DNA of 64,000 nucleotides from Gordonia effusa NBRC 100432. GTDB lineage: Bacteria > Actinomycetota > Actinomycetes > Mycobacteriales > Mycobacteriaceae. Position 1 is the stretch's first letter. Every line of letters starts with the position of its first letter. Below, in pieces: positions 52,536-64,000 of the stretch. Where the stretch lies: contig NZ_BAEH01000106.1 in assembly GCF_000241305.1 (NCBI RefSeq), positions 62,001 to 126,000 of the forward strand. The letters run 5' to 3'. The translations under genes and the position numbers were made by a program. Below the pieces are notes generated by a model that saw nothing but the letters and a program-made list of their open reading frames with translations, was not told the DNA's origin and did not search any database.

Positions 52536-52688
52536 GTCTCGATACACGGCCCCCTCGCTGCGCTCGTGGGCCGCACTCGACCATCAGAAGGTGGTCACCC
52601 CTCCCCGCTCGTGGGCCGCACTCGACCATCAGAAGGTGGTCACCCTTCCCCGCTCGTCGAGTGCCCGACGAGGCGGGTGTATCGAGAC
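52536..52688. repeat. Terminal-inverted-repeat element (REP/MITE-like)
   Basis: The 153-bp element is bounded by perfect 12-base inverted ends, GTCTCGATACAC (52536-52547) and GTGTATCGAGAC (52677-52688). Inside are G+C-rich dyads (for example the CGAG/CTCG pieces around 52653-52666) and a tandem duplication. It codes for nothing. Similar GTCTCGATAC-ended palindromes are scattered between genes in several actinobacteria, so it is probably one member of a dispersed family. Confidence 0.75.
52561..52650. repeat. Two 45-bp tandem copies within the element
   Basis: 52561-52605 and 52606-52650 are identical except for one base near the end (CTCCC against TTCCC), and seven bases of a third copy follow. 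Each unit contains CACTCGACCATC and AGAAGGTGGTC. Confidence 0.92.
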
Positions 52689-55824: not shown

Positions 55825-55826
55825 CG

Positions 55827-57146
55827 TCAGAACGAATCGAGTTTGGCGTCCAGGTCGTCGAATCGCTCGACGTCGGGCCGTTCGAGGAGGTGTCCACGAA
55901 TCGCGACGAAACGCGGGCCGACGAACGCCCGGAAATCGGCGAGCGGATCGGCGTCGAGAACCACCAGATCGGCGGACTTCCCGACCGCCAATGATCCTGT
56001 CTCACCGTCGATTCCGAGGATTGCCGCATTGGCACCGGTAGCGGCGTGGAATGCCTCGGCGTGGCTGAGCCCGCCGTAGCGAACCACGTAGTCGAGTTCG
56101 CGCCAGGTGTTGTAGTGCGTGACATAGGTCAGCGCCGAATCGGTGCCCATTCCCATCGCGATGCCGTTCTCGTGTGCGCCGTGAATGGCGGCGATGATTC
56201 GATCGAGCACGATCTCCGCGTTGGCGCGGACGATCCGATCGGCACCCGTCTCGGACTCGCTGAGTTTCACCAATGGCAGCGCGGCCATCAACGTCGGGAT
56301 AAGCGCAGACCGGCCATGTAGCGAGCGAGGGTTGTCGTGGAACAAATCGATGATCTCGTTGTCCATTTCACTACCGTGTTCGATGGTGTCGACGCCGGCG
56401 CGAAGGGCGGACCGCACCCCGTCGAGACTCTCCGCATGAGCGGCGACCACGATGCCGGCCTTATGCGCCTCCTCGCAGATCGCCGTCATCTCCTCTTCGG
56501 TCATCTGCGGCCGGCCGGCCTCGCCGATCGCGCGGGCATCGGTTACGCCGCCGGTCGCGGCGATTTTGATGGCATCGACGCCGTTGCGCAGGTTGACGCG
56601 CACATTCTTACGGGCGTCCCAGGGGTTGTCGCTGACGAGCGCGATGGTCGGGGTGCCGTGTCCGCCGCTCACCGCGAGCAATGGTCCCGACGCCAGAATG
56701 CGTGGACCGGGATACTTGCCCGCACCGATCTCGTTGCGGACCGCGACCACCTCATACCCGGCATCGCCAAGACTGCGGATGGTCGTAACACCCGAACGCA
56801 GTTGTGTCAGAACGTTTTTCGTCGCACGACGTTTGACAAACATTCGCCCGATGGGGCTATGGAAGAAGGCGGCGACCGCGGTCTCCGAGTGCTCACTGGT
56901 CAGTATCGCCGGAAGCGGCTTGCCGTCGGAGAATAGGTGCGCGTGTGCGTTGATGAGGCCGGGTGCGGTGAACGTGCCGGTGGCGTCGATCGTTCGATGT
57001 CCGGCTAGGACATCGGTTGTCGCGGCCGGACCAATCGCCGAGATGGCGCCGTCGGGTCCCACGACGATCGTTTGATCGGGCAAGACGGTGCCGGTCGCGT
57101 CGCCGGTGACGACGGTGGTGTGGGTGAGCGCGTATGGCGTTGACAT
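55827..57146 (-). CDS. Metal-dependent amidohydrolase (imidazolonepropionase/prolidase-like)
   Basis: 439 residues from ATG 57146 (AGGAGA upstream). Amidohydrolase-fold metal motifs: GLINAHAHLF, the lysine likely to be carbamylated in DAIKIAATGG, VAAHAES, DTIEHGSEMD and GMGTDSALTY. The surrounding sequence resembles enzymes cleaving N-acyl or X-Pro dipeptides. It is last of a three-gene operon with a ThrE-like exporter and a CapA-like protein. Lack of a signal peptide places it in the cytosol. The substrate is unknown. Confidence 0.87.
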   Translation of the reverse strand: MSTPYALTHTTVVTGDATGTVLPDQTIVVGPDGAISAIGPAATTDVLAGHRTIDATGTFTAPGLINAHAHLFSDGKPLPAILTSEHSETAVAAFFHSPIGRMFVKRRATKNVLTQLRSGVTTIRSLGDAGYEVVAVRNEIGAGKYPGPRILASGPLLAVSGGHGTPTIALVSDNPWDARKNVRVNLRNGVDAIKIAATGGVTDARAIGEAGRPQMTEEEMTAICEEAHKAGIVVAAHAESLDGVRSALRAGVDTIEHGSEMDNEIIDLFHDNPRSLHGRSALIPTLMAALPLVKLSESETGADRIVRANAEIVLDRIIAAIHGAHENGIAMGMGTDSALTYVTHYNTWRELDYVVRYGGLSHAEAFHAATGANAAILGIDGETGSLAVGKSADLVVLDADPLADFRAFVGPRFVAIRGHLLERPDVERFDDLDAKLDSF

Positions 57147-57160
57147 CAGGTTCTCCTGGT

Positions 57161-58408
57161 TCACATGTGGTCCGCTGACGGATGTTTGACGACGAATAGG
57201 GTCTCGGCGATCAGGGCGCCGATCTTTGTGCCGAGGCACAGACTGACGAAAGTTTGGAAGATCATGCCGACCGAGCCGGCGTCCATCGACGCGAGCGCGA
57301 CTAGGCCGACGGTCCCGGGAACCATGAGCAGGAAGGCCGGCTGGAAGGAGACGGTTGCTGGTACCGCGACTGTCATTCGTTCCAGAATTCGGGCGGCGAC
57401 AAAAAGAACCGCCGCAGCGAATCCGGTAGCTACGACGTTGCCGACCAGCACGGTCACGGCAGAAACAACGCTGAAGGTGAGCGTCATCATCACCACGCTG
57501 AGCACGATCAATCGCGTCCCCGCACCGAACGCCAGGCCCACGCCGACCGCGAGTGCCACGACGCCGATCCACGACAGCGGGAACGGCGGCAGCCCCTGCC
57601 ATCCGCCATTACCCGCGAGGCCGGGTATCTCGCCGACGAGCATCGCGGAATCGTGGTCGATATGCAGTCCGGTCACCGCCCCGCCCGCCAGGATGCCAAC
57701 GCTCATGAACCCGAGCATCATCAATCCGTACATCAGCCGGGACGCCCCGGTGACGATGTCGGCGGCGGTGAGTTCGAGTAGCGCGTTGGTGATCAACGCG
57801 CCCGGCACCAGAATGGCGATCGGCGCGCAGACTCCGTAGAGCGGCACCGAATCGAAGTCGAAGATCGACGCCGTCGCACCGACCAGCGCTGTCGCGCCGA
57901 AGGCCGCGACAAATGGTGCCACGGCGTCGCCGTTGCGGGTCCGGCCGAGTATTGATGTCGTGAGGCCAACCAGTCCGCCGACGATGAACGCGACGACGAT
58001 CGACCACCACGGACAGCGGAACACGACGGCCAGGCCACCGGCGACGAGGGCGCTCCCCATCACCCATGAAGCCACCGGCCGCGTCCGGGGCATGCGCCGG
58101 ATGGCCGCGATTCGTTCGGGCACCTGAGCGAGCGCGACGTCGGCCGCAACGGTCTGCTGAACGAGCCGACTGGCGTGTGCCGCCTGTCGAAACGACAGTT
58201 CCTTCCCGGCGGACTGAACGAATGTCGTGTGTCCGGTGTCGCGGTCGGTGACCCACACGGCGATCGGCAATACCGCGAATTCGATGTCCTTTTCGGCTGG
58301 GTGCGTGTTGCGGACCGCTACCAGGTTGTCCCGGACGTCGGTAACCGACATTCCGGCGTCGAGCAAGAGCACACCGAGTTCGCCGAGTCGCCGGTCGTGA
58401 TTGGTCAT
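57161..58408 (-). CDS. ThrE-family threonine/serine exporter-like protein
   Basis: 415 residues from ATG 58408. The N-terminal soluble domain (GELGVLLLDAGMSVTDVRDNL, a ThrE/DUF1212 signature, with QAAHASRLVQQTVAADVALAQ) precedes about ten membrane helices. ThrE of Corynebacterium exports threonine and serine. Overlap with capA (ATGA) and a 14-base gap to the amidohydrolase show co-transcription, so here it may export a product of those enzymes rather than plain threonine. Confidence 0.87.
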   Translation of the reverse strand: MTNHDRRLGELGVLLLDAGMSVTDVRDNLVAVRNTHPAEKDIEFAVLPIAVWVTDRDTGHTTFVQSAGKELSFRQAAHASRLVQQTVAADVALAQVPERIAAIRRMPRTRPVASWVMGSALVAGGLAVVFRCPWWSIVVAFIVGGLVGLTTSILGRTRNGDAVAPFVAAFGATALVGATASIFDFDSVPLYGVCAPIAILVPGALITNALLELTAADIVTGASRLMYGLMMLGFMSVGILAGGAVTGLHIDHDSAMLVGEIPGLAGNGGWQGLPPFPLSWIGVVALAVGVGLAFGAGTRLIVLSVVMMTLTFSVVSAVTVLVGNVVATGFAAAVLFVAARILERMTVAVPATVSFQPAFLLMVPGTVGLVALASMDAGSVGMIFQTFVSLCLGTKIGALIAETLFVVKHPSADHM

Positions 58409-59694
58409 GGGTGGCTCGGCAATACCCTGATCGCCAAGTTCACCAGTCGGCCGATCTCCGCGCGCTCGGATGCTTCGTTCGCTGTCTCGTGCGCGGACAT
58501 GGCGAGTAGATCGTGTATCCGAAAGTCGGTGCAGTTGCCCTTGCGATCGAACCTCGCGCGGCGATAGATCGGCTTCCACGAGACGTCTTTGATTCGGGTC
58601 ACCGGCACGCCACCGTGGTGACCCTTCGCCAAGGTGAAGCGGATGATGTTGCCCAACATGCTGTTTGGCACCGCCCCAACATACGACATCAGATCGCCGT
58701 GCGCGTAGACGATAAGCGAATCCTTGCTGAAACCGGTACGCGGATCTGTGAAGCGATAGCGCTCCATCGGTTGAATCACGTGTGGATGATTACCCAGGAT
58801 CACGTCGATGCCGAGCTCGACGAGTCGATGCCCATTATCGATCACCGTCTGGACGGGGAACGACTCGAATTCCAGACTCCAATGGACACAAGCGACGATC
58901 GCGTCAGCGTTTCGGTGGTGGGCGATATCTACGTGATGTCGCACCATCGACAAATCGGCGTCGGGCAGATTCAGCCGAAGATAGTTGACCAAATAGTCCT
59001 GTCCGGGCGGTATGTCGCGTCCATTAACTGAGAAGGTGTAGGAGAGGAATGCGACGCGGATCCCGCCGACATCGAGTACCGGAATATCGTCCCGCTCGGC
59101 TTTGGTGCGCGCTGTCCCGACATGTCCGCAGTCGTGTTCGTCGAGTACGTCGAGCGTTTCTCGTACTCCGACCACCCCCTGGTCGAGAGCATGATTATTG
59201 GCCGTGGAGAAGAACCCGAAGCCCGCGCCGATCACAATCCGCAATGTCTCCGGCGAGCTGTTGAGCGGAGGTGCGGACAAGATGCTCGATGGCGGGGCGC
59301 CTACTGCTCGTGACGGCGCTACCGGGGTTTCCAAATTGGCTATCGCGATGTCGGCGGCACGAAGGAACTCGTCAACGTCGTCCCACAGGTGCGCTGTGGT
59401 TTCCGGTCGAATGTGTTCGGAAGTGAGGATGTCGCCGGCCGAAGCGATCCGAGCGGAACATTCTTCGACGAAATCACCTGGCAGCGAATAGCGCATATCC
59501 TGAGCGGCGAAATAGTCTTCGATTCCGCTGCCGCGTTCGGCGTTTTCAACCGCGCCGAGGAAGAATTTATGCGCCCACCAGAGTTTTTCGGAAAGGCCCA
59601 TCGTCCCGGCATTACCCTCGATCGATCGTGAGTAGCCCGCACCCGTGACCAGTCCATAGATCCAGCAGATCGTCCGAACCAGTCCGGTCAGCAT
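58405..59694 (-). CDS. CapA-family protein (poly-gamma-glutamate capsule type)
   Basis: 429 residues. The metallophosphatase-like CapA domain shows DIAIANLETPVAP, FFSTANNHALDQGVVG, VACVHWSLEFESF and VILGNHPHVIQPMERY. The N-terminus is hydrophobic (VRTICWIYGLVTGAGYS) but short and no clear cleavable signal is seen. CapA acts in making or exporting poly-gamma-glutamate; many homologues have no capB or capC partner, as here. It is the first gene of the operon and divergent from a TetR gene. Confidence 0.85.
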   Translation of the reverse strand: MLTGLVRTICWIYGLVTGAGYSRSIEGNAGTMGLSEKLWWAHKFFLGAVENAERGSGIEDYFAAQDMRYSLPGDFVEECSARIASAGDILTSEHIRPETTAHLWDDVDEFLRAADIAIANLETPVAPSRAVGAPPSSILSAPPLNSSPETLRIVIGAGFGFFSTANNHALDQGVVGVRETLDVLDEHDCGHVGTARTKAERDDIPVLDVGGIRVAFLSYTFSVNGRDIPPGQDYLVNYLRLNLPDADLSMVRHHVDIAHHRNADAIVACVHWSLEFESFPVQTVIDNGHRLVELGIDVILGNHPHVIQPMERYRFTDPRTGFSKDSLIVYAHGDLMSYVGAVPNSMLGNIIRFTLAKGHHGGVPVTRIKDVSWKPIYRRARFDRKGNCTDFRIHDLLAMSAHETANEASERAEIGRLVNLAIRVLPSHP

Positions 59695-59713
59695 CTCATC
59701 TCCTCGTCACTTG

Positions 59714-59733
59714 ACTGTCACAGCTGTGACAGT
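59714..59733. promoter_or_regulatory. Perfect 20-bp palindrome (operator) upstream of capA
   Basis: ACTGTCACAGCTGTGACAGT is an uninterrupted palindrome 20 bases before the capA start. The size suits a TetR-family dimer and it sits on the capA side of the divergent region. Confidence 0.8.
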
Positions 59734-59775
59734 TGAAAGTGTGATCAGAAGACGTAGGCAAGTCAATGAAATGAC

Positions 59776-59794
59776 GGCAAGTGACACACTTGCC
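59776..59794. promoter_or_regulatory. Second palindrome, TetR side
   Basis: GGCAAGTG and CACTTGCC are perfect eight-base arms around ACA, 17 bases before the TetR start. The sequence differs from the capA-side palindrome, apart from a shared GTGACA piece, so two regulators or two binding modes are possible. Confidence 0.7.
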
Positions 59795-59810
59795 CGGAAT
59801 GTGAGACACG

Positions 59811-60362
59811 ATGACTGATTCGGCCGATCTCAGCGGCATCAATCCCATTGCGGCACGCTCACAGGAGTGGTTGATCAACGCGCTCTTCGCGCTCATGCGC
59901 GAAAAGTCGTATAGCGATATCACCATCACCGATATCGCTACCCGCGCAGAGTTGTCTCGTCGCACCTTCTATCGAAACTTCGCCACCAAAGATGAACTGA
60001 TCGACGCATATTGCCGCAGGCTTGTCGACGACTACGTCCACCGTATGCGAAAAGCGGACTTGACCAAGTCTCGAGACGTCGCGCTGCGCTTCTTCGAATT
60101 TTGGACCGATCACGCCGACTTCCTCGAACTGCTCACATCGAGCGGTTTGAGCAGTTTGCTCCTGCGGAAGTTCAACGAGCACATCGGTGCGATCTTCATT
60201 CGCACTCAGACCCCGAGATTCGATGACGCCGTACATCTGGAATACGCGTTGGCATTCACCGCAGGCGGATACTTCAATGTGTTGTTCGCGTGGCTGCACC
60301 TCGGCAAACGCGAGACGCCGGCGGAGATGGCTGATGCCATCGTCTCACTCCCCGGCAATTAG
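59811..60362 (+). CDS. TetR-family transcriptional regulator
   Basis: 183 residues. The HTH is YSDITITDIATRAELSRRTFYRNFATKDELIDAYCRRL, and the C-terminal part (FTAGGYFNVLFAWLHLGKRETPAEMADAI) matches the TetR_C_7 type of domain. It is divergent from the capA-thrE-amidohydrolase operon with two palindromes in the 116-base gap, so it most likely controls that operon and itself. The ligand is unknown. Confidence 0.88.
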   Translation: MTDSADLSGINPIAARSQEWLINALFALMREKSYSDITITDIATRAELSRRTFYRNFATKDELIDAYCRRLVDDYVHRMRKADLTKSRDVALRFFEFWTDHADFLELLTSSGLSSLLLRKFNEHIGAIFIRTQTPRFDDAVHLEYALAFTAGGYFNVLFAWLHLGKRETPAEMADAIVSLPGN

Positions 60363-60369
60363 TCAGCGC

Positions 60370-61287
60370 TCATTCTGCGCTGGCGATCTCCGGGAATCTG
60401 TTCCGCACATGCGCTTGCAAACGCAGCGCCGCAGCCGACACCGTCGACGACGACATCGCCAGCCCGACACTTCGGGTGAAGTCGCCGCCGGTCAGTTCCA
60501 GTGCCACAACGTCGTCTGCTGCATCGGCGTCGATCGACTGGGGCATGATCGCGATGCCGAGTCCCCGAGCGACCATCGATCGCATCGTCTCGAAATCCGC
60601 GACCTCGACGGTCACTCTCGGCTCGAATCCCGCTGCGGCACACCACCGTAACGTCTCTTGACGCAGGTGATAAGTCGACGGATTAGCGATGAAGTCCTCG
60701 TCGGCAAGGTCGGTGAGCCGTATCCGTTTCCGTCGCGCCAACCGATGATCGCGAGGAACGTGCACGCTTAGTCGCTGGGTTCCCAACGGCGCTGTCGGTA
60801 ATCCAGTTGGCGTCGGAATCACGATGGCCAGGTCGAGTTCACCTTCGCGCAAGCAGCGCACCAGTTCGGCGCCGTGTGCCTGCCGCAGCACCAGACGAAT
60901 TCTCGGCGCGATGTCGTGGAATTCGGCAAGCATCTTCGGAATCAGGTTGGGTCCCAAGCTAAGTGGAAATCCAAACCGAACCAGGCCAGCGTCGGGGTCG
61001 GCGTCGTCGACCGCCGCGCTCAATGCATGATCGATAGCTCGAAGGGGACCGCGAATACTGGCGAGCAGTTCACGACCCGCCGCGGTCAGCACCAGTCGAC
61101 GACCCGCCGGAACGAACAGAGTCACTCCGAGCGTCTTCTCCAGGGCATGCAGTCTGCGACTGATCGATGACTGCGGAAGATCCAACAGCGCTGCCCCACG
61201 AGTGACATGCCCAGTTGTCGCGACCACTTCGAATGCCGCCAACGACGGCATCAGCTCACGAGTATGCATGGCCAGCATTTCATCCAT
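60370..61287 (-). CDS. LysR-family transcriptional regulator
   Basis: 305 residues from ATG 61287; the inner ATG 61269 (MHTRELMPSLAAFE) is an alternative. The N-terminal HTH is LAAFEVVATTGHVTRGAALLDLPQSSISRRLHALEKTLG, and the periplasmic-binding-like effector domain follows (LVRFGFPLSLGPNLIPKML). It is divergent from mqo and probably controls it. The start lies in a CATCCA-TATT-TGGATG dyad (61281-61296), which suggests self-repression. The stop is seven bases from the convergent TetR gene. Confidence 0.88.
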   Translation of the reverse strand: MDEMLAMHTRELMPSLAAFEVVATTGHVTRGAALLDLPQSSISRRLHALEKTLGVTLFVPAGRRLVLTAAGRELLASIRGPLRAIDHALSAAVDDADPDAGLVRFGFPLSLGPNLIPKMLAEFHDIAPRIRLVLRQAHGAELVRCLREGELDLAIVIPTPTGLPTAPLGTQRLSVHVPRDHRLARRKRIRLTDLADEDFIANPSTYHLRQETLRWCAAAGFEPRVTVEVADFETMRSMVARGLGIAIMPQSIDADAADDVVALELTGGDFTRSVGLAMSSSTVSAAALRLQAHVRNRFPEIASAE

Positions 61288-61293
61288 ATTTGG

Positions 61294-61299
61294 ATGATA
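61294..61299 (-). promoter_or_regulatory. -10 hexamer of a predicted leaderless promoter (lysR)
   Basis: TATCAT on the minus strand ends six bases before ATG 61287 and partly overlaps the dyad at 61281-61296. Confidence 0.5.
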
Positions 61300-61376
61300 A
61301 CCATCGAAACATACATTGGACAGATTGATTATTGTCGGCGCAGGATGGTGCCACACGCATCCAGGAAGGCCACACA

Positions 61377-62801
61377 ATGACTACTCGATCCGCTTCGGCC
61401 ACCTACGACGTCGTCTTGATCGGGGGTGGCATCATGTCAACGACGCTGGGAGCGATGCTGAGCACGCTCGCTCCCGATCTACGCATTGTGCTGCTCGAAC
61501 GCGCCGACCGGCTCGCCCAGGAGAGTTCTGGATCGTGGAACAACGCGGGCACCGGCCATTCAGGATTCTGCGAACTCAATTACATGCCCGACCCCGCCGA
61601 CGGCGAGAAGGCACTCGACGTCGCGCGGCAATACCGGATCACCCGCCAGTGGTGGTCATCGCTCGCCGACCGCGGGCTCGTCGACCTCGAAACATTCGTC
61701 CGTTCGACGCCGCATATGAATCTGGTATTCACCCCAGAAGATGTCTCCTACCTTCGGCAGCGCCACGAAACTCTCTCGGCATCAACACTTTTCGATGAGA
61801 TGGAATACAGCGAAGACCCCGATACCATTCGGTCCTGGGCTCCGCTGTCGATCCAGGGGCGCACCGACGGGCCCATCGCCGCAACGCGAGTCGCCGGTGG
61901 CACCGACGTCGACTTCGGGTCGCTCACCCACTCCCTCGCATCGATCATCACCGAGAACGGCGGCGAAGTGCGCACCAGCGCCGAGGTGACCAAGCTGCGA
62001 CGAAGCTCGGGAGGTTGGGTTATCTACGGACGAAATCGGCACGGAGATAAGGGTTTTGAACTTGACGCGCGGTTTGTCTTCGTCGGCGCCGGCGGTCAGG
62101 CTCTACGACTCCTACAGAAGGCCAACGTCGCCGAGGTGCGCGGATACGGGGTCCTGCCGGTGGGCGCCGCATTCCTCCGCTGCACCGATCCTGAGGTCGT
62201 CGGCCGGCACGACGCGAAAGTCTACGGTCAAGCACCGACCGGGGCGCCGCCGATGTCGGTGCCGCACTTGGATAAACGGTTCGTCGGCGGCGAACTGGCA
62301 CTGATGTTCGGTCCGTATGCGACCTTCAGTACCCGTCTCCTCCGTGGCGGCAAGCTGACCGACTTCTTCGCAACGGTCCGTTGGCATAACGCCGTCGGCC
62401 TGGCATGCGCGATAGCTGGAAACTGGCGGTTGGTGAAATACCTTCTAGGGCAACTGCTTTCCTCGCGAACACGACGATTCGCACAGCTCCGCGCGTATTA
62501 CCCCACCGCGAACCCCGACCAGTGGGAACTGATCGGAGCAGGTCAGCGAGCACAGTTGATCCGACGGGTCGGCCGCAATCCCGGTGTGCTGCATACCGGT
62601 ACCGAGTTGGTCGTCGGCGCCGACGGCACTATCGCGGGCCTGCTCGGCGCATCACCGGGCGCGTCGACCGCGGTTCCGATCATGCTGGACCTTCTGCGAC
62701 AATGCTTCCCAGACCGTTGGCACCGGGACTGGCAGGCACAGCTCACCCGCGCGATACCCGACGTAGCATCCGCTGCCGGGCCGAGCGGGTCGCCACGGTA
62801 A
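61377..62801 (+). CDS. mqo: Malate:quinone oxidoreductase
   Basis: 474 residues from ATG 61377 (AGGAAGG upstream). The FAD-binding N-terminus is DVVLIGGGIMSTTLGAML (GxGxxG type), followed by LAQESSGSWNNAGTGHSGFCELNY and the C-terminal GASPGASTAVPIMLDLL typical of Mqo. This peripheral membrane flavoprotein oxidises malate to oxaloacetate and reduces menaquinone, bypassing NAD-malate dehydrogenase. The length is slightly short of the usual 490-500. Its 3' end overlaps the convergent DUF4188 gene by 59 bases. Confidence 0.93.
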   Translation: MTTRSASATYDVVLIGGGIMSTTLGAMLSTLAPDLRIVLLERADRLAQESSGSWNNAGTGHSGFCELNYMPDPADGEKALDVARQYRITRQWWSSLADRGLVDLETFVRSTPHMNLVFTPEDVSYLRQRHETLSASTLFDEMEYSEDPDTIRSWAPLSIQGRTDGPIAATRVAGGTDVDFGSLTHSLASIITENGGEVRTSAEVTKLRRSSGGWVIYGRNRHGDKGFELDARFVFVGAGGQALRLLQKANVAEVRGYGVLPVGAAFLRCTDPEVVGRHDAKVYGQAPTGAPPMSVPHLDKRFVGGELALMFGPYATFSTRLLRGGKLTDFFATVRWHNAVGLACAIAGNWRLVKYLLGQLLSSRTRRFAQLRAYYPTANPDQWELIGAGQRAQLIRRVGRNPGVLHTGTELVVGADGTIAGLLGASPGASTAVPIMLDLLRQCFPDRWHRDWQAQLTRAIPDVASAAGPSGSPR

Positions 62802-63228
62802 TGGGCTCCGACGTCGTCGCGGCGGCCAAACCGGTGACCGGCATTGCGCCATAGATAGATTCAGCATTTCCGGCCGGAACGTCGTAGGTTTCGTGCCAGA
62901 TCCCTACCGCCTCGGGGGCGGCTTTTGCCCTGGCGTAGAAGGCTTTCCACGCGGGCCAATGTCGATGATCGGCGTCGCGTGCGTACTGATAGAGCTCGTC
63001 GACGCTGCGCCAGTACTGGACAACCATCGCGCCGCGCGGCTGTAGCGCGAGCTGGTAGTTCAACAGCCCGCTAGCCGGGTCCTGTTCAAGTTCCCGCAGC
63101 ATTCTCGGCATGGCCGTGAATACCGGGACCCACTGTTTGACTCGAAGTGGATTGTTGATGCGGAATCCGATGAGAAACAGAACCATCGGGTCATCGGACT
63201 TATGTGTCGTGGTCGGTACATTGCCCAT
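62743..63228 (-). CDS. DUF4188-family protein
   Basis: 161 residues from ATG 63228 (GGAGG upstream). The sequence FLIGFRINNPLRVKQWVPVF, QYWRSVDELYQYARDADHRHWPAW and VGIWHETYDVPAGNAESIY is that of the DUF4188 family, a ferredoxin-like-fold relative of the dimeric alpha-beta-barrel monooxygenases and of phenylacetaldoxime dehydratase. No reaction is established. It is divergent from a MerR-type regulator and has a MerR-type promoter, so it is probably induced by that regulator's signal. Confidence 0.82.
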   Translation of the reverse strand: MGNVPTTTHKSDDPMVLFLIGFRINNPLRVKQWVPVFTAMPRMLRELEQDPASGLLNYQLALQPRGAMVVQYWRSVDELYQYARDADHRHWPAWKAFYARAKAAPEAVGIWHETYDVPAGNAESIYGAMPVTGLAAATTSEPITVATRSARQRMLRRVSRG

Positions 63229-63269
63229 GATTGCCTCCGGGAGGGCTGATTGGATAGTACGACTCTCCA

Positions 63270-63299
63270 ATAATGGATAGCGGTAGTATCCAATGTCAA
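63270..63299 (-). promoter_or_regulatory. MerR-type promoter of the DUF4188 gene
   Basis: On the minus strand TTGACA (63299-63294) and CATTAT (63275-63270) are 18 bases apart, longer than the ideal 17. The spacer holds the dyad GGATA/TATCC (63275-63291). MerR proteins bind such a spacer dyad and twist the DNA to activate. Flanking ATTGGATA/TATCCAAT arms (63249-63256, 63287-63294) add further symmetry. Confidence 0.65.
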
Positions 63300-63315
63300 G
63301 CAGATTGGAGATCCA

Positions 63316-63978
63316 GTGCAAATATCCGAGTTGGCCGCAACCACCGGACACACCGTGGCCACCGTCAAGTTCTATCTCCGCACCGGACTACTGCCGCCCG
63401 GCGAACGCACCAGCGCGACGCGCGCCACCTACGACGCCGACCATGTCCAACGATTGCGGCTGATCCGCGCGCTGATCGACGTCGGCGGGCTCAGCTTGGC
63501 GCAGGTACAACAGGTGCTGGAGGTGCTGGGCGGTGAAGACCGTTCTCCGACCGAAGTTCTCGGTGCCGCCTATTTCGCACTGGCCGGTCGCGCGCCAACC
63601 GAGAGCGATGGGCGAGTGCGCAAGGTGCTCGTCGAACTGGGCTGGGCGCCACTGTCCCACGATCCGTATCTCGCACGGCTGGAGGAAGTTGTCATCGCGT
63701 TGGACGATCTCGGCGTGCCAATATCCGACGACGCTTTGCGCACATACGCGCGCGCTGCGATGGATGTCGCGACCGTCGACATCGATCGCGCGGACATCTC
63801 CTCTAACCAGATGACCAACCTCAGCAAAGGTCTGACGACGATGGCCGCGGGAACCATTCTCTACGAACCGATCCTGACCGGACTACGCCGTCTTGCGCAC
63901 GCCGAAATCACGATATCGCGGTATGGACGACCCACACCCGCAGATGACGAGCGCGCACATGACAAGATGGGCGAATGA
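63316..63978 (+). CDS. MerR-family transcriptional regulator
   Basis: 220 residues, GTG start with GGAG upstream. The winged HTH of MerR is QISELAATTGHTVATVKFYLRTGLLPPGERTSATRATYDADHVQRLRLIRAL, then a linker helix (LSLAQVQQVLEVLGGED) and a C-terminal ligand domain of about 130 residues without Cys clusters, so an organic ligand rather than a metal is likely. It is divergent from DUF4188. The stop TGA overlaps the next start (ATGA). Confidence 0.88.
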   Translation: MQISELAATTGHTVATVKFYLRTGLLPPGERTSATRATYDADHVQRLRLIRALIDVGGLSLAQVQQVLEVLGGEDRSPTEVLGAAYFALAGRAPTESDGRVRKVLVELGWAPLSHDPYLARLEEVVIALDDLGVPISDDALRTYARAAMDVATVDIDRADISSNQMTNLSKGLTTMAAGTILYEPILTGLRRLAHAEITISRYGRPTPADDERAHDKMGE

Positions 63979-64000
63979 CCAGCCCAGCCAACTTCGCGAC
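63975..64000 (+). CDS. Start of a gene cut by the window edge
   Basis: ATG 63975 overlaps the MerR stop as ATGA and reads MTSPANFA before the window ends. Its position implies co-transcription with the MerR gene. Nothing more can be said about the product. Confidence 0.5.

Follow-up and report, generated by a model that had tools for sequence, protein, structure and literature searches.

ThrE of Corynebacterium glutamicum is described as an exporter of L-threonine and L-serine, and a dipeptide-feeding assay is described for SerE (PMC7260847). For the peptide epimerase MslH, mutational work shows that Asp11, Glu44, Asn87, His88, Asp91, His259, His261 and His295 matter (PMC10406935). Distant kin of the third family considered here, the amidohydrolases, include epsilon-lysine acylases (PMC10699109) and a metal-dependent bile salt hydrolase to which 3MTW is among the structurally close proteins (PMC13081902, a preprint). 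Proteins resembling these are encoded side by side in a 64,000-nucleotide stretch of Gordonia effusa NBRC 100432 (hereafter the window), taken from contig C28; the whole genome measures 4.7 Mb. The genes capA, thrE and an amidohydrolase gene follow one another on the minus strand, and a tetR gene lies divergent to them on the plus strand (Table 1). The regulator, its likely operator and capA form a genuine unit that two species share, and the larger operon, with thrE and the amidohydrolase gene, is genuine in its own genome and so far unique. The locus is therefore a modestly novel arrangement of familiar parts, in which tetR-capA is a conserved pair and the trio is seen in one genome.

Operon anatomy and the tetR-capA control region

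The TGA stop codon of capA and the ATG start codon of thrE share a four-base ATGA overlap, and thrE is separated by 14 bases from the amidohydrolase gene, which has a ribosome-binding site (AGGAG) ahead of its start. The three genes are thus joined by an overlap and a short gap, as an earlier, sequence-only reading of the window had claimed. A consensus scan returned two terminator-like sites, both on the strand opposite the operon and within chance expectation.

The tetR-capA intergenic region (59695–59810) is 116 bases long and contains, on its capA side, the perfect 20-base-pair palindrome reported in the sequence-only reading (palindrome 1). Of 5000 dinucleotide-shuffled versions of the region, 1 contained a perfect palindrome of this length, and palindrome 1 is the sole perfect spacer-free example across the window. 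When the region was aligned with its counterpart in Gordonia spumicola NBRC 107696 (NZ_BJOV01000002.1; L031, L113), the score was 60, against a highest value of 41 in 2000 shuffled pairs, and within palindrome 1 the two genomes agreed at 15 of 20 positions, 13 of them among the 16 of the core. A palindrome kept between divergently transcribed genes is what a TetR repressor with its own operator would be expected to show, and both genomes show it. In each of the two genomes this locus is the only one with an exact match to the operator pattern, and the presumed recognition-helix region reads LSRRTFYRN in one TetR and LSRRTYYRN in the other. Because the exact pattern is confined to the locus in both genomes, the recognition helix is near-identical and the palindrome is conserved, this two-genome comparison indicates that palindrome 1 is likely the private operator of the divergent TetR. 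With one mismatch allowed, the pattern was no commoner than a backward control in either genome, and with three mismatches the window held 4 sites against 2.08 expected; a TetR regulon beyond its own locus was thus considered, and on these counts we claim no further targets.

The tetR-side palindrome (palindrome 2), described together with palindrome 1 in the sequence-only reading, fared less well. It exists where it was described, but 165 of 5000 shuffles contained eight-base arms with a spacer of 0–8 bases, so it is not clearly above chance, and at its position in G. spumicola the palindromic symmetry is not kept. Nor is it wholly unlike palindrome 1, as had been stated: GTCACTTG, next to palindrome 1 (59706–59713), is the inverse of CAAGTGAC within palindrome 2 (59778–59785). 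Comparative support therefore extends to palindrome 1 and not to palindrome 2, which is probably not an independent operator.

The consensus scan found no sigma-70 promoter. By position and conservation, TTGAC and TCACACTT form a plausible capA promoter, and palindrome 1 would therefore lie at the transcription start. Immediately ahead of the capA ribosome-binding site, G. spumicola has TGTCACACATGTGCCA in place of TGTCACAGCTGTGACA.

Table 1. Genes and putative regulatory elements of the locus (window positions)
Feature	Positions	Strand	Supporting evidence
TetR-family regulator, 183 residues	59811-60362	+	PF00440, E-value 3.3e-10; PF14278
CapA/PGA_cap-family protein, 429 residues, calcineurin-like fold	58405-59694	-	PF09587, E-value 1.6e-51
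ThrE-family exporter, 415 residues from the ATG within the ATGA overlap	57161-58408	-	PF06738, E-value 4.7e-33
Amidohydrolase, 439 residues	55827-57146	-	PF01979, E-value 2.3e-44
Palindrome 1, perfect, 20 base pairs, core TGTCACANNTGTGACA, likely TetR operator	59714-59733		Shuffles and G. spumicola comparison
Palindrome 2, 19 base pairs, 8-base arms and 3-base centre, tetR side	59776-59794		Within chance
TTGAC, candidate -35 element of the capA promoter	59762-59766	-	Kept in G. spumicola; inferred
TCACACTT, putative -10 region for capA, 17 bases past TTGAC	59737-59744	-	Kept in G. spumicola; inferred

Protein similarities

The predicted structure of CapA (mean predicted local distance difference test score, pLDDT, of 87) had the MslH peptide epimerase (PDB 8gq9) as its best match in the PDB, with an E-value of 2.3e-17 and a TM-score of about 0.55. 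Set against the MslH pattern of four metal ligands and two His/Asp dyads, seven of the eight mutated MslH residues align with D88, E122, N167, H168, D171, H271 and H305 of CapA; the stretch from E122 to D171 aligns well pairwise, H271 and H305 fall in a weak stretch, and D88 is matched in the family alignment only. Most of these residues are invariant or near-invariant across 32 aligned CapA proteins. Epimerase activity is thus possible for CapA, because the MslH-matched residues are conserved, although they are shared widely in the CapA family. The two proteins also differ: His261 of MslH corresponds to S273; E275 and H303, which are conserved among the aligned CapA proteins, pair with no residue of MslH in the alignment; no lasso-peptide genes were noticed near the capA locus; and the NCBIfam MslH model NF038314 gave 51.2 bits against a cut-off of 700. 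CapA has no strong hydrophobic segment, its largest 19-residue mean being 1.3 at residues 1–19, which fits an intracellular location.

HxH, Lys, His, His and Asp form the metal-ligand pattern of prolidase-type amidohydrolases, and the window protein carries all of these residues (H68/H70, K194, H237, H257 and D336) in register with 2p9b, annotated as a "possible prolidase". This is the closest solved structure (E-value of 1.8e-146 over 436 aligned residues), a protein with no known substrate. Judged by its prolidase relatives, the amidohydrolase is of the COG1228 type. Further solved matches were an Xaa-Pro dipeptidase, arginine carboxypeptidases and ochratoxinase; the window protein departs from the Xaa-Pro dipeptidase in scoring 233.7 bits with the NCBIfam model NF051886, for which the cut-off is 500. 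The metal-ligand list agrees with that in a preprint (PMC13081902).

ThrE scored 115.1 bits with PF06738 (gathering cut-off 26.3) and narrowly exceeded the cut-off of PF12821, and its hydrophobic stretches lie between residues 113 and 407. Both families are shared with Corynebacterium ThrE, and the likeness is at the level of the Pfam family.

Distribution in Gordonia and beyond

Among 59 Gordonia genomes, in which a crude gene caller picked some antisense frames, close relatives (64–66%) of TetR and CapA co-occur in the same two. At an E-value of 1e-15, and with at most 58 candidates scored per genome, TetR was found in G. effusa and G. spumicola; at 1e-20, CapA was found in these two (66% in G. 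spumicola) and in a third genome, G073 (37%). ThrE relatives of at least 49% identity are present in six genomes, the source genome included, and amidohydrolase relatives of at least 50% identity in four, G. spumicola among them.

The G. spumicola locus shares with that of G. effusa the TetR (64%), the CapA (64–66%), the intergenic region and palindrome 1, and differs in having a YhgE/Pip-type gene directly after capA, followed by a convergent amino-acid permease gene. The thrE and amidohydrolase relatives of G. spumicola are on the same contig, more than 300 kb from its capA. The amidohydrolase relative (L146, 6438–7756) is split across two overlapping frames, perhaps through a frameshift or an assembly error.

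In samples from the wider order and class, at most four candidates were scored per genome, so that a miss is not proof of absence. The order sample gave a CapA match at an E-value of 1e-25 in 105 of 397 genomes, the source genome included; the best match outside it was 6.6e-35, and matches were confined to residues 77–369. No close CapA relative outside Gordonia was found at 1e-36 among the other 393 genomes of the class sample, and ThrE was found at 1e-60 in its own genome only among the 397 genomes of the order sample. Viral contigs contributed four CapA loci of 25–28% identity.

Annotated rhizobial relatives of the window CapA carry a GO term for capsule polysaccharide synthesis. On rhizobial plasmids, CapA relatives adjoin importers of amino acids or peptides, accompanied by genes for asparaginase, M20 peptidase, amidohydrolase or amidase. 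A tested amide hydrolase lies within 6 kb in 6 of the 11 loci of this extended CapA branch and in 2 of 78 other CapA loci, and ThrE or a tested amino-acid or peptide permease in 8 of 11 and 0 of 78, respectively; G. spumicola and Roseibacterium (L032) are the extended loci with neither partner. L031 duplicates L113 and was not counted separately, and six further near-identical Bradyrhizobium plasmids were left out.

In Gordonia, G073 has its 37% CapA convergent to an amidohydrolase frame (L112); a PucR regulator is also encoded there, as is a putative transporter (PF03553, barely above the cut-off). In G004 a 77% relative of that amidohydrolase is flanked on one side by a PucR gene and on the other by thrE, whose product is 28% identical to the window ThrE (L148), and another relative lies in G036 near a PucR gene and a choloylglycine-family hydrolase (L158). 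In three Gordonia (L149, L153, L154) a choloylglycine-type hydrolase (CBAH) adjoins thrE. These neighbours are distant from the window proteins (27–30% for ThrE, about 34% for the amidohydrolase). The five loci L148, L149, L153, L154 and L158 form a recurrent Gordonia locus with a choloylglycine-family hydrolase, ThrE or both, to which some add dihydrolipoyl-dehydrogenase-like, ProP-like, old-yellow-enzyme-like and PucR-amidohydrolase genes.

Proposed function and alternatives

We tentatively favour, at somewhat less than an even chance, a TetR-repressed, inducible operon for the breakdown of a peptide-like or N-acyl amino acid amide and the export of the freed amino acid. When the compound is absent, TetR bound to palindrome 1, at or just past the capA transcription start, would block transcription; binding of the compound or a product to TetR would then allow all three genes to be made from one transcript, as the overlaps suggest. 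The amidohydrolase would cut the amide or peptide bond beside an amino acid inside the cell, and CapA, as a metal enzyme of calcineurin fold, might hydrolyse the same molecule or epimerise its terminal residue. ThrE would let out the amino acid that accumulates. Such an operon may have arisen from a mobile TetR-CapA pair with a variable downstream exporter slot, filled here by ThrE and the amidohydrolase.

This interpretation develops the proposal of the sequence-only reading that the operon handles an amide or peptide and exports the product, which is supported in part by the operon anatomy, the conserved palindrome, the prolidase-like amidohydrolase and the paired genes in other Gordonia, and indirectly by the neighbours of the rhizobial CapA relatives. 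Its suggested check, a neighbourhood search for the trio elsewhere, gave no second case, an outcome that the reading itself had named as refuting: capA, thrE and the amidohydrolase gene occur together in 1 of the 59 Gordonia genomes, that of G. effusa itself. Further observations weigh against the proposal. The thrE and amidohydrolase genes were not found in the 19 kb around G. spumicola capA, and within 4 kb of the five closest ThrE relatives (49–65%) there is neither a CapA nor any of the tested amide hydrolases. When all 12 ThrE matches outside the source genome were opened, a tested partner lay within 4 kb at 5 of 13 loci, the source locus included, and was missing at 8. For the amidohydrolase, 10 loci outside the source genome were opened from 36 matches (which include the source gene and one split gene counted twice); 3 had a tested partner within 4 kb, two of them chosen since the match lists already showed the neighbour, and 7 had none. 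By coordinates, 3 of the 36 matches adjoin a ThrE or CapA match (the source genome, G004 and G073). The G073 frame is 332 residues long and its profile match starts only at position 90, so with the first part of the profile missing it may be incomplete or broken. The CapA-locus comparison is biased, in that most queries were drawn from extended loci, 5 of the 11 represent one rhizobial operon and the 78 controls come largely from other phyla; the rhizobial CapA proteins are only 26–28% like the window CapA. No uptake gene is present among the operon genes. Finally, the guanine-plus-cytosine (G+C) content of capA (0.586) and tetR (0.558) differs from that of thrE (0.651) and the amidohydrolase gene (0.641), where 44 well-scoring window genes have a mean of 0.623 (standard deviation 0.022).

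These last values bear directly on the possibility that TetR-CapA alone is the functional unit and that thrE and the amidohydrolase gene are passengers behind capA, sharing its transcript but no pathway, a distinct possibility that comes close behind breakdown and export. The difference in composition suggests two origins for the two gene pairs; tetR-capA is not inherently low in G+C, because the G. spumicola copies stand at 0.656 and 0.671, respectively. The passenger arrangement also accords with the G. spumicola pair lacking the two downstream genes, with the single occurrence of the trio and with the locus being a point of insertion or rearrangement. Upstream of the operon lies an acyltransferase gene, matched in 17 other genomes at an E-value of 1e-60; in all five of the relatives that we opened, dprE1-like and dprE2-like genes follow it one to two genes on. 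In G. effusa they sit on contig C70 and not after the acyltransferase, which suggests an inserted or rearranged block. Against passengers stand the ATGA coupling and tight gene spacing, and the two loci at which amidohydrolase relatives have CapA (L112) or ThrE (L148) as a neighbour.

It is unlikely, though not negligibly so, that the locus is a resistance module, induced by a toxic amide or peptide from another microbe, with enzymes that inactivate this compound and an exporter slot that removes it or its products. Resistance modules commonly pair a divergent TetR with an operon that includes an exporter, the distribution is patchy and the transporter type varies by species (ThrE here, the YhgE/Pip type in G. 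spumicola), but the ThrE whose function is known transports threonine and serine, and the four proteins had no PADLOC match. The same PADLOC search gave no candidate defence system. A role of CapA in making a poly-gamma-glutamate capsule, to which ThrE and the amidohydrolase would be ancillary, is highly improbable: the family name speaks for it, and against it are the peptide epimerase as nearest solved fold and the lack of a strong hydrophobic segment in CapA (no signal-peptide program was run), and no capB- or capC-type gene was seen among the frames at 52–64 kb (judged by eye and with Pfam on ten neighbours, with no CapB/CapC model search).

Returning to breakdown and export, a broader proposal, which we regard as doubtful, is that the extended CapA branch (here, on rhizobial plasmids and in one other Gordonia) represents an unrecognised metal-dependent enzyme for the breakdown of peptides or amino-acid conjugates and not a capsule gene; it could act as an epimerase, preparing D/L terminal residues for the amidohydrolase. 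Were this branch to work in peptide or amide breakdown, the capsule annotations would mislead, and ThrE exporters would gain a link to amide hydrolases, for which they would serve as overflow valves. With only one operator, the tetR-capA pair offers a small system for testing the role of CapA.

Several features of the surroundings may be recorded. At 55825–64000 and on the contig beyond the window, the arabinogalactan-type gene order, which runs unbroken in the five opened Gordonia, is interrupted after the acyltransferase; large genes that look like arabinosyltransferase genes begin about 9.6 kb past the acyltransferase, outside the window. A second malate:quinone oxidoreductase (61332–62801), 46% identical to the copy on contig C59, lies next to a divergent LysR gene, a pairing also present in four of the five opened Gordonia loci. 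At 52561–52657, two near-perfect 45-base tandem copies lie between two genes.

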